This document shows, piece by piece, positions 53,953-60,855 of a stretch of DNA of 64,000 bases. Origin of the DNA: Bdellovibrio bacteriovorus HD100 (GTDB taxonomy: Bacteria > Bdellovibrionota > Bdellovibrionia > Bdellovibrionales > Bdellovibrionaceae); the NCBI RefSeq assembly GCF_000196175.1, contig NC_005363.1:124001-188000 (forward strand), in the 5' to 3' direction. The translations under genes and the position numbers were made by a program. The notes under the pieces are model-generated. The model searched no databases. It was given only the letters and a program-made list of their open reading frames with translations, and had not been told where the DNA came from. The first letter of the stretch is position 1, and the number at the start of each line of letters is the position of its first letter.

Positions 53953-54480
53953 ACCCAGCTGTTCTTCAGCGGATCTTTTCATGCCCGGGGCTGTGGCTTC
54001 CATGGTGTCTTCGTTGCGGCTGACAATCACGGCAGAATTTCCCAGGACTTCTTCTTTGGCCAGGGCTTTGACTGCCAGCGAGATCGCTTTTTGCTTTTCT
54101 TTTGAGAAGCCCACCACAGTCAGTTTTAGTTCCACCACCTGACCCACTTTCACTCCGGACAAAGTGTCAGAGGTGATGCCGTCAACAACACTGACCCCTT
54201 CCGGCAGGGACCACGTGTACGCCAGGTCGCCTTGCAGGGTCTGATTCACAAGAACGCGGCCGACAAGAATCACTTCATCAGTGCCGGATTCAGGGATTTC
54301 ATCCTCGGATTTTAGTTCAACATGGAACAGAGCCAGATGTTTACCCACAGGAGCAGGCCGCCACGTGGATTTGGCTGTGGAAGCGGGTTTGCGGTCTTCC
54401 GTTTTTGCCGTGAAGGAATAAACTGAAATGCCTGCAAGCAGGGACAGGATTGCGGTAAAGGCTATCTTTCGGTTCCGCAT
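53923..54480 (-). CDS. Membrane-anchored protein of unknown function
   Basis: 185 residues. An N-terminal membrane segment or signal (AFTAILSLLAGISVYSFTA) is followed by a beta-rich domain (LALFHVELKSEDEIPESG; VILVGRVLVNQTLQGDLAYT; VVELKLTVVGFSKEK) and a charged tail ending in RRRK. The middle resembles an immunoglobulin-like fold by strand pattern only. Its start lies inside the end of the metallopeptidase-like lipoprotein gene (19-base overlap), so the pair are likely coexpressed. Confidence 0.68.
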   Translation of the reverse strand: MRNRKIAFTAILSLLAGISVYSFTAKTEDRKPASTAKSTWRPAPVGKHLALFHVELKSEDEIPESGTDEVILVGRVLVNQTLQGDLAYTWSLPEGVSVVDGITSDTLSGVKVGQVVELKLTVVGFSKEKQKAISLAVKALAKEEVLGNSAVIVSRNEDTMEATAPGMKRSAEEQLGSETVHRRRK

Positions 54481-56426
54481 ATGACTGTGCCTCCTTTTTT
54501 GATTCTGTAAGTTGCATTGGTGTTCATCTGGGATGCCGTTTTATTGTAAGCGTTGATTTTTACGTTCAGCAGGTAGTAGCCAGCAGACAGTCCACTGGTG
54601 CTGATGGACTCGGTGGCGCCCACGGTTTCAGAACGGCTCTGTTTGACGATATAGTCAGAGGAATATCCGCCATACCAATAGGCGTCTTCAAAGTACACAT
54701 AGTCCTTTTTGTACAGAATAAGATCCAGATTCAGCTTTGTGCTTGAATACTCCAGCGACAGAGTGGTGCTGTTGCCATCGTGATAGTACAGATAGAAGTC
54801 GTTATTCACCTGCTGATCCGAGCGTTTGACGCTGTCTCTGGCCGTCATCAGTTGTTCTTCTTTTCCGACAGTGAAGGTGATATCAGAACAGGTGGTTTCG
54901 CCCAGATAGAAAGCATAGTCCTTGGTGGTCTTGCTTTGCTTTTCTTCAGCAAGGATCGCGTCCCATTTTGCTGTCGCACCAGCCACGTTGCGGGACAGTA
55001 GATTGTTAAACAGACCTACACTTGGAATGGGATAGACGGAGGTGTTGACCAGACTGGTGGTGACCGGATTGGATTTTTTGTGCCCGGCAGTGTCTTCCCC
55101 AGCGAAGGTCATCCACACTTTTGAGAAGTCCATGCCTCCGCCGAATTTGGTGCTTTCATACTCGGCCATGTCATCGCGAGTGGCTTTGTAAAGCGCGCGC
55201 GATACGGACACTTCACGGAAAGTCCCCGTGCCGGCAAGATCCGCTGAAGTGTTGTCATAGCTTGCCGCAGTTCCATCCTGCCACAGGTTGAAGGAAATAC
55301 TGACCCCGGCCGTGTTTCCTGAGGCGCGGTAGCCATAGGTGTCCACATAGTAGTGATAACGGGGATCTGTCGGTGCTCGATTTTCATCAGCGTTGTTATA
55401 GGCGGCATCCGCTCCACTTAAGACGGCGGCCTGGAAATAGTTGGCCCAGCCTTCACTCCAGGAAAGTCTGGCATCGATGACGAAGTTCCCTGTGTGGGAT
55501 CCTCCCGGAGATCCGGAATTGCCGTAGACGTCTTCCAGGAAGTGAGCGTATTCATGCAGGATCACGGAGTCATCAAAGTGGTCAGTGTCAGAAGACTTCA
55601 CGTCGCCGTTCACGCCCCCCAGGATGTAGAGCTTGCGTTCCCCCGGGGAATAGAACGACAGGGGAGAGTTGGAGCCGAAGTAAGAGTATGGATTGAATCC
55701 GGCCTTCCAGAAGACGGTCACTTTTTCGGCCACCCACCAGAGGTTGGTGTTGGTGGAAGGAATACCGCCATTGTTTTTGCCAATGTTGCGGCGGATGTAT
55801 TCGTTCGCCAGCAGGATGTTGTACATGATGTTGAAGGCGCCACCTTCGATGCGAGATGACGTGCTTTCGTTGGCCTCGGCGTAAACCGGGGAAGAAGTCA
55901 GATCCAGCGTGCCTGTGGTGATATCACCCGCCGTGATAGAGAATGATTTCGCCGCATAGTGAGGGGTGTTGGCATAAATGTCGGCCAGGATGCTGACTTT
56001 CAGATAGTCATTATAAGCCCGCGAGAAGACTTTGAAAGTGTAGGTGCCAGCGGTTTTTGGAATCTTAAAGGTCGCAATGCCATCGGTGTCGGTTTCACCC
56101 TGTTGGATGCGGGTGCCGGAGGTGTCATAGATATGGAACTCTGCAAAGGAGATTGGAACGGCATCGCCAGTTGCGACCACATTGGTCAGTCCGTTGGTAG
56201 AGCTGCCGGGAGTGAAGCTCAGGCCGCGATAAAGGAACTTTGTCGGAAGTGTGACAGTGACGGACTGGGCGGCATCCATTTCGGTGGGTTTGCCGTAATA
56301 GGTCGGCTCAGGAGAGGCGGGGGCATTGGATGAGAAGTCGCCGCCTTCAAGGCCGCCACCACCACAAGCTGTCAGAATGAGAGTCCACGCGCTGATAAAA
56401 CCAGCCATCATCCGGTTCAAAGTCAT
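54462..56426 (-). CDS. Lipoprotein with HExxH metallopeptidase-like domain
   Basis: 654 residues. The lipobox LILTACGGGG marks a lipoprotein. Domains in order: a carboxypeptidase-regulatory-like beta domain near residues 75-150 (IYDTSGTRIQQGETDTDGIA), a peptidase-like domain and a C-terminal beta domain resembling the bacterial pre-peptidase type (SAGYYLLNVKINAY). The peptidase-like domain has the zinc motif VILHEYAHFLED near residue 289 and a possible third ligand Glu in SWSEGWANYF. The HExxH plus distant Glu pattern is that of gluzincins. Surface or periplasmic location is predicted. Confidence 0.78.
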   Translation of the reverse strand: MTLNRMMAGFISAWTLILTACGGGGLEGGDFSSNAPASPEPTYYGKPTEMDAAQSVTVTLPTKFLYRGLSFTPGSSTNGLTNVVATGDAVPISFAEFHIYDTSGTRIQQGETDTDGIATFKIPKTAGTYTFKVFSRAYNDYLKVSILADIYANTPHYAAKSFSITAGDITTGTLDLTSSPVYAEANESTSSRIEGGAFNIMYNILLANEYIRRNIGKNNGGIPSTNTNLWWVAEKVTVFWKAGFNPYSYFGSNSPLSFYSPGERKLYILGGVNGDVKSSDTDHFDDSVILHEYAHFLEDVYGNSGSPGGSHTGNFVIDARLSWSEGWANYFQAAVLSGADAAYNNADENRAPTDPRYHYYVDTYGYRASGNTAGVSISFNLWQDGTAASYDNTSADLAGTGTFREVSVSRALYKATRDDMAEYESTKFGGGMDFSKVWMTFAGEDTAGHKKSNPVTTSLVNTSVYPIPSVGLFNNLLSRNVAGATAKWDAILAEEKQSKTTKDYAFYLGETTCSDITFTVGKEEQLMTARDSVKRSDQQVNNDFYLYYHDGNSTTLSLEYSSTKLNLDLILYKKDYVYFEDAYWYGGYSSDYIVKQSRSETVGATESISTSGLSAGYYLLNVKINAYNKTASQMNTNATYRIKKGGTVICGTER

Positions 56427-56505: not shown

Positions 56506-56560
56506 CGAAGTTTTTTGCAGGACTGTCTCGGCTTGAGACAAATAAAAAAAGGCTCGAAGA
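56506..56560. repeat. 55-bp direct repeat, copy 1
   Basis: Identical over 55 bases to 58875-58929. The unit begins with CGAAG and ends with CGAAGA. It contains GTCTCGGCTTGAGAC, a 5-bp stem with a 5-base loop, set between TTTTTT and AAAAAAA arms that could extend the hairpin. It lies just past the KAP NTPase stop. Confidence 0.92.
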
Positions 56561-56583
56561 AACTAAGTCACCTTTACCTTAAT

Positions 56584-58836
56584 TTAAACTTTAAGAAAGG
56601 ATTTAATCACTCTTATTACATTCAGATATTTCCCATTATTAACTTCAATTAATCGGGTAACTAACGAGTGTTGAGAGTCGCTGGTCATTCGCATAAATCT
56701 TGCTGTATTTATGTAGTCGTCATTGCTATTGAAACCATTAATTTCAAGGTATTTTTCCAACAAATTGTCCAGTTGCGCTTCATTTAAGATTGATGTTCTT
56801 GCAATATGCATGTGGTCTAAATATTGCCGAAGGAGTCCGCTTTCATTTTCAAGTATCTCGAAGTAATTTTGATCTAGAGATAGTACCTCCTCATATGAAA
56901 AGTTGGGAAGAGAAGCGAAGAGGTTTGCTTTGATAGTTTCGAATTCAACTGGATAATCTGGTTTGTATACGCGTTTAAAAAGGAGCATGGACATAATTGA
57001 TACTTTTAGTTCACCTGTCCATGCAACCTTTGCGCGGGCGCTTAAATACCCATTTATCCAGCTCTTAAAAATTCCGGTGGAGGATATAGCTTCGCGAAGA
57101 GAATGATAGATCCATTCAGTGTTTCCATCCTTTTCATGACAGATCTTCTTCATTGTTAATGCAACAAATGATGGATGTAGACTCCTATCGATTGCCTGAA
57201 CTATTCCGATGAAGTTTGAGCTTAGTTGATCTGCGGTTAGATAATTGAATGAATAGCTAGGTATTTCTTGATGGTGAGAGTATGGATTATCCTTAAGTCC
57301 ATCAATGATCATTTTGAGACCTTCCCATGAAATTGCATTTGGGGGGGATTTGTCCATTTGATAGATTGGGGTATAAATGGGATTTATCATTTTAAATAGA
57401 TGATGTCTATTTTCGCCGTTTGAAAGCTCGGAAACTAATGTGAATGCTGCATGTGTTTGGTTTCCATAGATGCTTTGATATAGAGCGACGAACTTATCTT
57501 CGTCGCCTGGCATAGGTTCAAACATGTCTAAATAAATTTTTGGGAACCGTGTCTTTAAAATTGTTATCTTTATGGCCTCTTGAAGGTGGATCTTGTGTGC
57601 TCCGAACTTGAGGAGTGAGTGCAGGGAGATGGCAAATTGCTTTAAGTCGCGATAATTATTCAGAAGATAGTAATATTCGCTTTCAAAATTGGTCTTGGAA
57701 ATTTCAGTAAGGTAGTGTTCCATGCCTTCTTGCTCAAGCACTCTCATGATATACTGTTTTGCTTGATTGTTGGACTGATTGTAGTCCAGCGCATGTACAT
57801 GAAGTTCGTAGTCTATGTATTTTGCAAAGAAAGAGCTATGTCCGTGAGAAGAATCATGCAATAAGCTCTCAATTCGAACTCTGTCGTATAAAACAATTTG
57901 CTTAATTTTTGGAACGCCAGCGATTTTTCCAATTAAACGTAATGCGACGACGACCTCTTCAGGTTTTAGCCTGTCGAGATCGTCATATATAATTACGTAC
58001 ATATCATCTGATGACTCTAGGTGATTTGATAAAAGTTTTTTTGTAGCAATCTGACTATCGGAGTTTGTTACTAGTTGTACAACTGAAGACAATATGTTTG
58101 GGGTTGATGAAAGCATCGACTCAAAGACAGCCTTTGTAAAAATATTTGGATTCTCGCCAAAGAATATCGACAAATATTTTTCTCTTAGTTCTTCGACAAG
58201 TGACTCGGAGCTGAAGTAGTTTGAAGAGTCAATGTGAGTGATTTTGTACCGGCGGTCCTTTTCTAAGGTGGAGACTAAAGAGTGGATTAGAGAAGTTTTC
58301 CCTATGCCCCACGGTCCAGATATTCCAATAGTTGAAAGTTTGTTGTTTTCGTGCACTACCTTCAAGAGAAAGTCTTCCTTTTCTCCCGCATCTTTACTTA
58401 GACCTTCGGTGATCTCGAAAGGCCGTAGGTCAAATATTGATTCAAGTCCGAAGTTTTCAATTTTTTGGGGTGCTTTTCCGCTCTTCCAGTTAATGGAGGC
58501 AATCATTCCTAATACTGTGGATACCATTCCAATTAGGTAGACAATTTCTTTATGTTGAGAGGGTGGGGACGTGTATAGGTCGACAACAAGCATTAAGTTG
58601 GAAAGAAAGTAGGTGAAGCCATTGGCTATAAGGGACTTGGTATTTTGAGAGAACGTAAATACCTGATATGTGAGGCAAAAGCACAGCACTGACCAACTCG
58701 ATATACTTAAAAGTCTAAGCGCTAAGCTCAATTCCTTTGTTGCGTCTACGAACAGTGACAGGCCGTATAGTATTGCAAAGCTGGCCAGCAGGGACTTTAG
58801 TAAGGAGGTTGAGTGTTTTTGTAGAAATGGGACCAT
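56584..58836 (-). CDS. KAP-family P-loop NTPase with N-terminal membrane helices
   Basis: 750 residues. Four hydrophobic helices lie within residues 10-118 (for example LLASFAILYGLSLFV and LIGMVSTVLGMIASINW). A KAP-type P-loop domain follows, with Walker A GISGPWGIGKTSLIHSL near residue 174 and Walker B MYVIIYDDLDRLKPEEV near residue 283. The last 350 residues are helical with no known motif. KAP NTPases are membrane-linked STAND-like ATPases, patchily spread and found in phage-defence settings. The gene is AT-rich (two sampled 60-base lines gave 38% and 42% GC, against 60% in a line of xseA) and is bounded by perfect 55-bp repeats, so recent gain is likely. No clear ribosome-binding site. 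Confidence 0.85.
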   Translation of the reverse strand: MVPFLQKHSTSLLKSLLASFAILYGLSLFVDATKELSLALRLLSISSWSVLCFCLTYQVFTFSQNTKSLIANGFTYFLSNLMLVVDLYTSPPSQHKEIVYLIGMVSTVLGMIASINWKSGKAPQKIENFGLESIFDLRPFEITEGLSKDAGEKEDFLLKVVHENNKLSTIGISGPWGIGKTSLIHSLVSTLEKDRRYKITHIDSSNYFSSESLVEELREKYLSIFFGENPNIFTKAVFESMLSSTPNILSSVVQLVTNSDSQIATKKLLSNHLESSDDMYVIIYDDLDRLKPEEVVVALRLIGKIAGVPKIKQIVLYDRVRIESLLHDSSHGHSSFFAKYIDYELHVHALDYNQSNNQAKQYIMRVLEQEGMEHYLTEISKTNFESEYYYLLNNYRDLKQFAISLHSLLKFGAHKIHLQEAIKITILKTRFPKIYLDMFEPMPGDEDKFVALYQSIYGNQTHAAFTLVSELSNGENRHHLFKMINPIYTPIYQMDKSPPNAISWEGLKMIIDGLKDNPYSHHQEIPSYSFNYLTADQLSSNFIGIVQAIDRSLHPSFVALTMKKICHEKDGNTEWIYHSLREAISSTGIFKSWINGYLSARAKVAWTGELKVSIMSMLLFKRVYKPDYPVEFETIKANLFASLPNFSYEEVLSLDQNYFEILENESGLLRQYLDHMHIARTSILNEAQLDNLLEKYLEINGFNSNDDYINTARFMRMTSDSQHSLVTRLIEVNNGKYLNVIRVIKSFLKV

Positions 58837-58874
58837 GCTAGGACTATCGGATATAAACTTAAACTAATTAAGTG

Positions 58875-58929
58875 CGAAGTTTTTTGCAGGACTGTCTCGG
58901 CTTGAGACAAATAAAAAAAGGCTCGAAGA
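58875..58929. repeat. 55-bp direct repeat, copy 2
   Basis: Perfect copy of 56506-56560, lying 38 bases above the KAP NTPase start. The two copies are 2,369 bases apart and enclose only that gene. Confidence 0.92.
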
Positions 58930-59108
58930 CCACTCTGAAAAAGTAAACCTGTTTTAGCTAAGGTGGGTAACCATGATAACAACTTTAGGCTTCTCAGTAC
59001 GAGCTGAGCTTGCTCACCATTGTCAGGGACAGTCCCCAAAAATATGCTTGTAAGGTTTATTTTCGATAGAGCTTTACGCCGTCGAACCCTTCTAAAAACC
59101 ATTCTATC

Positions 59109-59177
59109 ATGTCTTTTTATATCGTCAATCGAACCGGACTCTTACTTTCCGGTAAAGCTCCGATAAATTGCTTATGA
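59109..59177 (+). CDS. Possible 22-codon leader ORF
   Basis: An ATG at 59109 opens 22 codons (MSFYIVNRTGLLLSGKAPIN and two more) and its TGA overlaps the ATG of the small membrane protein gene as ATGA. There is no clear ribosome-binding site. It could couple translation to the next gene, or be chance. Confidence 0.25.
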   Translation: MSFYIVNRTGLLLSGKAPINCL

Positions 59178-59448: not shown

Positions 59449-60855
59449 ATGTCGGACTCTCCTAATCAGCCTCTTCGTAAAACAGATGTTTCAGCCCAAG
59501 CCAGTCTTGGAGCTGCGGACCTATTGACGAAGAACAACGAACCTTCCGTGCTTTCCGTCGAGCAGCTTAATATCTATGTGAAGCAGTTGCTGGAGGGTCA
59601 GATCGGGCAGGTGTGGGTGAAGGGTGAAATTTCAAACTTCAAGGCTCACACCTCCGGTCACTTTTATTTCAGCCTGAAAGATTCCCGTTCCCAGATCACG
59701 GCCGTGATGTTCCGTGGTAACAACGCCCGTTTGAAATTCAAACCTACCGATGGGATGGAAGTCATCGTTCGCGGCCGCATCACGGTGTATGAGCCGCGTG
59801 GTAACTATCAGCTGATGTGCGAGATGATGGAACCCGTCGGTGCCGGAGCTTTGCAAAAAGCTTTCGAGCAACTGAAAATGAAATTGAAAGCCGAGGGTTT
59901 GTTTGAATCAGCCCGCAAAAAGCCGATTCCGACTTTCCCAAGACATATTGCGATCGTGACGTCTCCGACCGGAGCGGCGATTCGTGATATTTTGAACGTT
60001 CTTTCCCGTCGCGCTAAAGCCATCCAGGTGACGGTGGTTCCAACCATCGTGCAGGGTGAGGCGGCAGCTCCACAAATTTGCGAGGCCTTTAAAAAAGCCA
60101 CCGCCCTTCCGGGTGTGGATGTGGTGATTGTCGGGCGCGGTGGTGGATCCATTGAAGACATGTGGTGTTTCAATGATGAACGGCTTGCGCGTTTGATTGC
60201 GGCAAGCCCGGTCCCGGTGATTTCCGCCGTGGGGCACGAAATTGATTTTACTATCGCTGACTTTGTGGCGGACTTGCGTGCGCCGACACCTTCGGCCGCG
60301 GCAGAACTTGTGGCGAAAAGCTCAGGCGAACTGGCCAACAAGGTTGTGTCGCTGGAGCGCATGCTGCATCTGACTTTTGAAAAGAAGATGAAGTTCCTGC
60401 GTGAAAAGATGCTGGGTCTTTCCAAACGACTGGTGGATCCGAAGCGCCGTTTGCAGGATCTGGAGCTTCGCAACGATGATCTTTTGAACCGTCTGGAGTT
60501 CGCGATCAACCGCCGTCTGGCGGAGCGTCGCCACCGGGTGGAGCTGATGAGTCAGAAACTGGGAAGCCCCCAGGATCTGATTGATGAAAAGAAAAAGGAT
60601 CTGGAATATCTGAAGGCACGTTCTGAAAAGGCGCTACATTTTTCGATTGAAAGAAAAAAGGCCCGCATGGGCAAGGTCATGGCTATGCTGGATAGTCTCA
60701 GTCCCCTGAAGGTGGTTGAGCGTGGCTATTCAATCGTGACCAAAAATTCTGAAGTTATTAAATCTGCGAGTCAGGTGAAAAAGGGAGACCTTTTGGATAT
60801 CCGCCTGGCTCAGGGCTCAGTGACCGCCATCGTGGATGGCGTGAAGGAGGAATAG
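59449..60855 (+). CDS. xseA: Exodeoxyribonuclease VII large subunit
   Basis: 468 residues. The OB-fold domain (VKGEISNFKAHTSGHFYFSL; SQITAVMFRGN) is followed by the catalytic domain (IAIVTSPTGAAIRDILNVLS; VDVVIVGRGGGSIEDMWCFN; SAVGHEIDFTIADFVADLRA) and a C-terminal coiled coil. About 30 extra residues precede the usual LSVEQLNIYVKQLLEG start. With XseB it degrades single-stranded DNA from both ends. xseB follows after one base. Confidence 0.95.
   Translation: MSDSPNQPLRKTDVSAQASLGAADLLTKNNEPSVLSVEQLNIYVKQLLEGQIGQVWVKGEISNFKAHTSGHFYFSLKDSRSQITAVMFRGNNARLKFKPTDGMEVIVRGRITVYEPRGNYQLMCEMMEPVGAGALQKAFEQLKMKLKAEGLFESARKKPIPTFPRHIAIVTSPTGAAIRDILNVLSRRAKAIQVTVVPTIVQGEAAAPQICEAFKKATALPGVDVVIVGRGGGSIEDMWCFNDERLARLIAASPVPVISAVGHEIDFTIADFVADLRAPTPSAAAELVAKSSGELANKVVSLERMLHLTFEKKMKFLREKMLGLSKRLVDPKRRLQDLELRNDDLLNRLEFAINRRLAERRHRVELMSQKLGSPQDLIDEKKKDLEYLKARSEKALHFSIERKKARMGKVMAMLDSLSPLKVVERGYSIVTKNSEVIKSASQVKKGDLLDIRLAQGSVTAIVDGVKEE

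Follow-up and report, generated by a model that had tools for sequence, protein, structure and literature searches.

Genomic islands of the Islander class enter stable-RNA genes at their 3' ends, and a regenerated stable-RNA gene accompanied by a displaced fragment is the hallmark of tyrosine-integrase islands at tRNA and tmRNA genes (PMC4383910). In Bdellovibrio bacteriovorus, strain-specific islands and single genes have been described at tRNAs of strains HD100 and Tiberius, and ICE-like elements were suggested for them (Hobley et al. 2012, PMC3539863). Tmn is a KAP NTPase whose transmembrane segments are unusual, and it guards Escherichia coli against several phages (PMC11846954).

Here we analyse a locus of strain HD100 where the 6S RNA gene, ssrS, has received a single membrane-linked KAP NTPase gene precisely at its 3' end. 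As with Islander-class islands, the 3' end of a stable RNA was hit, the gene was regenerated on one side with a displaced fragment at the other, and relatives have an empty site. Unlike those islands, the target is a 6S RNA gene rather than a tRNA or tmRNA gene, and the unit consists of a one-gene cargo of 2.4 kb without the integrase that Islander requires. The tRNA-site genes of Hobley et al. (PMC3539863) are similar in that they are strain-specific single foreign genes beside stable-RNA genes of the same organism, whereas the ssrS unit targets the 6S gene and is flanked by a long perfect repeat pair. With PifA and Tmn the locus shares a KAP P-loop NTPase encoded by a single gene that is mobile or accessory, but the HD100 protein is of low similarity and has its hydrophobic segments ahead of the NTPase domain. 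Integron cassettes resemble the unit in carrying one ORF with very short margins and a repeat, some 55 bp long, that resembles a recombination site, and their integrase acts in trans; the HD100 55-mer, however, is native ssrS sequence rather than a cassette-borne attC, and there is no array. We rejected the cassette reading because the 55-mer occurs once in genomes that lack the KAP gene. No description of a 6S gene as an attachment site was found in the openly licensed literature, and earlier reports may exist.

A one-gene unit between perfect repeats at ssrS

The window that we analysed is a 64-kb stretch of the 3,782,950-bp HD100 genome (bases 124001-188000), and feature positions are given within it unless they are marked as genomic. 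Two 55-bp sequences, described as perfect direct repeats in a first-pass annotation of the window, are located at 56506-56560 and 58875-58929. The copies proved to be 100% identical and are spaced 2,369 bp apart, and when the window was scanned for direct repeats of 28 bp or more lying within 20 kb of each other, this pair alone emerged. The same annotation had proposed a search for further copies; the 55-mer is not scattered, given that the pair has no close copies elsewhere in the HD100 genome (3.78 Mb), and the contigs of GTDB 220 and the viral contigs yielded zero matches. The inserted unit of 2,369 bp corresponds to 56561-58929 or, equally, to 56506-58874, the two bounds being equivalent because the crossover point within the 55 bp is not fixed.

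Inspection of the list of ORFs revealed only one plausible gene between the repeats, an intact ORF of 750 codons, in agreement with the first-pass description of a single 750-residue KAP NTPase. This gene (56584-58836, minus strand) accounts for 97% of the inter-repeat DNA, leaving margins of 23 bp after its stop codon and 38 bp before its start codon. As had been noted, no integrase or transposase is adjacent to the unit, and none is encoded within it. No terminal inverted repeats pair the two ends of the unit. A DNA transposon was therefore rejected, on the grounds that terminal inverted repeats, a transposase and any other gene are missing from the unit. Searches of plasmids and phages with the insert as DNA gave no match.

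With a GC content of 38%, the insert lies below the window as a whole (50%) and below both xseA and the lipoprotein gene on its other flank (52% each). The AT-richness reported at first pass thus holds, although the value of 60% then quoted for xseA is a local one and the whole gene has 52%. The KAP gene itself has 39% GC and 40% GC3, versus 52% GC and 59-62% GC3 for both native flanking genes. These flanks are a lipoprotein-like gene (54462-56426, minus strand), which 15 of the 20 congeners examined also have next to ssrS, and xseA (59449-60855, plus strand), which also lies past ssrS in congeners.

The target is ssrS (58914-59093, minus strand), the single 6S gene found in the HD100 genome and a full-length match to Rfam RF00013 (85.7 bits, E 8e-17). 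The 55-mer consists of the final 16 nt of ssrS, including the start of the U-run, and the 39 bp past the end of the gene. Because the right copy contains the end of ssrS itself, the left copy represents a displaced piece of that end, resembling an attachment site. The first-pass annotation had left unclear how the gene moved, a question that is narrowed by the identification of this target. The ssrS gene beside the right copy is intact, and its RNA is still predicted to fold as a long closed 6S hairpin. A promoter-like site, TTGACG-N16-TAGAAT, was predicted just before ssrS by a consensus scan (59101-59128, minus strand; 10/12).

Each copy of the 55-mer contains a palindrome, TGTCTC-N5-GAGACA (56524-56540 in the left copy and 58893-58909 in the right). 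This pattern is present at 10 sites in HD100, 8 of them beyond the two copies, compared with 0 sites for a reversed control pattern, and it recurs across the genus. The HD100 sites that we inspected are mostly intergenic, and some are terminator-like hairpins. A TGTCTCA-like motif also follows ssrS in many congeners despite differing surroundings. The palindrome may represent a site for a regulator or a hairpin that is favoured as such.

Empty sites in related genomes

We compared 24 genomes of the genus, HD100 and 23 others, with one genome per species. A comparison with relatives had been set beforehand as the check for an empty site carrying one 55-bp copy, and two genomes, designated G006 and G003, have exactly this arrangement with the same flanks. 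When the HD100 flanks were joined via one 55-mer, the resulting sequence aligned without gaps over 791 bp to both G006 (97.6% identity) and G003 (94.7%). The one 55-mer in each of these genomes is the same as the right HD100 copy, with which it also shares the right flank, whereas its left flank corresponds to that of the left HD100 copy; the 20 bases on either side are those of the outer flanks in HD100. Remoter congeners have a single, diverged 55-bp copy at the same place.

The KAP gene is present in only one of the 24 genomes, HD100 itself (0/23 for the other species). Its absence from the other genomes, together with the one-copy empty sites, places the gain on the HD100 lineage; from the empty sites of G006 and G003 the unit is missing as a block. 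HD100 had already separated from G006 and G003 when the gain took place. The earlier suggestion of a discrete and recent acquisition is accordingly upheld with respect to the unit, its recency being bounded only by that separation; at 55 bp, the repeats are too short to yield a date.

The KAP NTPase

The KAP protein matches the KAP_NTPase family PF07693 with an E value of 2e-20 and a score of 73.7 bits (curated cut-off, 20), and it contains a Walker A motif, GPWGIGKT, at residue 174 and a Walker B motif, YVIIYDDLDR, at residue 280. Its hydropathy peaks are confined to residues of about 20, 46 and 107, all of which are NH2-terminal to the NTPase domain. An inserted arrangement of the segments in KAP proteins is reportedly announced in the title of an article by Aravind and colleagues from 2004. 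The top defence model for the protein was PifA (PADLOC, E 5.7e-17), with low similarity in two stretches, the best of which spans residues 251-323; no Tmn-named model was among its defence-model matches. The link to phage defence raised by the first-pass annotation thus gains a KAP domain and a PifA match and stays circumstantial. A PifA- or Tmn-like role in defence is plausible for this protein on the basis of its sequence, and is unproven.

No close KAP homologues were detected in GTDB contigs, viral contigs, plasmids or phages, save one plasmid match at 25% identity, and 369 genomes of the phylum yielded weak KAP-domain matches only. The neighbours of four weak KAP homologues, viewed by eye, formed no obvious defence island. 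A sequence search of the PDB with the KAP protein matched nothing, and the structure model obtained from its single sequence with AlphaFold2 (mean pLDDT of 38.7) was too poor for use. A consensus scan of the 38 bp before the KAP gene revealed no promoter of its own that stood out, and the gene and ssrS are transcribed in the same direction. Read-through from ssrS into the KAP gene may therefore occur.

Other ssrS loci and tRNA sites

A search for similar units covered the flanks of ssrS and of tRNA genes. Of 60 further ssrS loci, 20 from the genus and 40 from other genomes of the order, none showed a comparable 3'-end duplication, and the idea of ssrS as a general insertion hotspot was rejected on the basis of these loci. 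A candidate duplication at ssrS of genome G136 turned out to be a tandem paralogue. In genome G022, a pair of genes that, judged by eye, resembles a nucleotidyltransferase (MNT) and a HEPN-like partner is located about 120-850 bp past the ssrS 3' end, at the place that the lipoprotein gene occupies in other congeners; no 3'-end duplication was found at ssrS of this genome.

We likewise scanned the 36 tRNA genes of HD100 at their 3' flanks, and none showed a long perfect repeat pair such as that at ssrS; the only similar arrangements were at tRNA-Gln and at one further tRNA. HD100 tRNA-Gln is followed, 233 bp downstream, by a 49-nt copy of its own 3' end with 92% identity. The 3' flank of this tRNA is hypervariable (genomic positions 2712650-2725000 in HD100; G003, G007 and G006 were compared). 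The site in G007 contains a phage-integrase fragment, which across 117 amino acids has approximately 40% identity with the HD100 enzyme, as well as an NsnB/AriA-like ATPase with matches among the defence models (NsnB, E 5e-55), and that in G003 contains a different gene set, including metallo-hydrolase-like and patatin-like genes. At another HD100 tRNA (genomic positions 2193883-2193953), a terminator-like 32-mer after the gene has a 94% copy 1,278 bp downstream, with three small ORFs in between; part of this interval is common to G003 only. The unit at ssrS thus stands alone as an instance of a process otherwise seen at tRNAs in the genus.

Discussion

The junctions at ssrS show the regenerated gene and displaced fragment that mark tyrosine-integrase islands (PMC4383910), and they therefore favour an insertion of the integrase type. 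Most likely, a tyrosine recombinase that acted in trans, or that has since been lost, made the insertion. We regard it as an evenly balanced proposition that the unit arose by site-specific integration of a small circle at the 3' end of ssrS, with the integrase acting in trans and the KAP gene serving as a defence-type cargo. According to this scheme, a small DNA circle would carry the KAP gene together with an ssrS 3'-end copy of its own, and recombination between that copy and its chromosomal counterpart would bring the circle into the chromosome. Integration would regenerate ssrS on one side, and the 55-bp fragment would end up displaced to the opposite side. The KAP NTPase, with its hydrophobic NH2-terminal segments, might then act at the membrane as a switch that is driven by nucleotides and directed against phages or other foreign DNA, in the manner of PifA or Tmn.

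Because the unit encodes no recombinase, a tyrosine integrase would have to act on it in trans. The HD100 genome has four Phage_integrase matches, comprising two ORFs of Xer size, one of 177 amino acids and one full-length enzyme of the phage type; the two recombinase genes that are not Xer genes lie at genomic positions 2597331 and 1933984. None of these is near the unit, the phage-type gene being about 2.4 Mb off, and the locus of the latter has not one 11-mer in common with the 55-mer. Given that no integrase is nearby and that no such 11-mer is shared, action in trans is something that we infer. The use of RNA 3' ends as insertion sites in the genus, as indicated by the strain-specific genes at tRNAs (PMC3539863) and by the tRNA-Gln site of G007, supports integration of a circle at ssrS, which is weakened by the lack of an integrase in the unit, by its being a single case among ssrS loci, and, as regards defence, by the KAP protein having no close relative among the sequences searched that could serve for comparison.

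A possible but rather unlikely alternative is that a larger, integrase-bearing island or prophage entered ssrS and that internal deletions left only the KAP gene and the two att-site copies. The junction signature would be the same, and integrase fragments and decayed islands do exist in the genus, as the tRNA-Gln site of G007 illustrates with its integrase fragment. The deletions, however, would have had to spare both repeats and yet end 23 bp past the stop codon and 38 bp ahead of the start codon, and the insert is devoid of any other gene fragment. With margins of just 23 and 38 bp, a unit that moved as such fits better than a decayed island.

It is improbable that no site-specific recombinase took part and that repair or template switching at a long staggered break duplicated the 55 bp, the position at the ssrS end being coincidental. 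Such an event would account for a unit without an integrase, and duplication at a break yields perfect repeats automatically. At 55 bp, however, the duplication well exceeds the target duplications known for transposons, which counts against this type of insertion, as does the lack of terminal inverted repeats. HD100 has about 40 stable RNA genes, and a chance landing at the terminus of any of them is also unlikely, being expected, by a rough estimate, for <1% of intergenic insertions. That the KAP gene is ancestral and was lost elsewhere is hardly credible: although deletion between the 55-bp repeats would recreate an identical empty site, the loss would be required in every other lineage (KAP in 0/23 congeners), which parsimony disfavours, normal divergence is seen at the one-copy site of remoter congeners, and the KAP gene retains foreign GC and GC3 values.

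Returning to integration of a circle, we propose, tentatively and as an unlikely rather than a probable reading in its entirety, that a minimal defence unit of one gene uses the 6S gene as its attachment site, that the circle is moved by an integrase in trans, as a non-autonomous element aimed at ssrS, and that the KAP gene is perhaps subject to growth-phase transcription linked to 6S RNA. The insertion has the look of a tiny mobile element that does not bring its own integrase. The availability of filled and empty sites in cultivable strains, with ends known to within 55 bases, renders excision, mobilisation in trans and effects on 6S RNA directly testable. With this locus, ssrS joins the stable-RNA genes that are able to be insertion targets while remaining intact. 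A complete foreign gene, itself a candidate for phage defence, has been added with almost no extra DNA to the genome of a predator that is thought to destroy foreign DNA.
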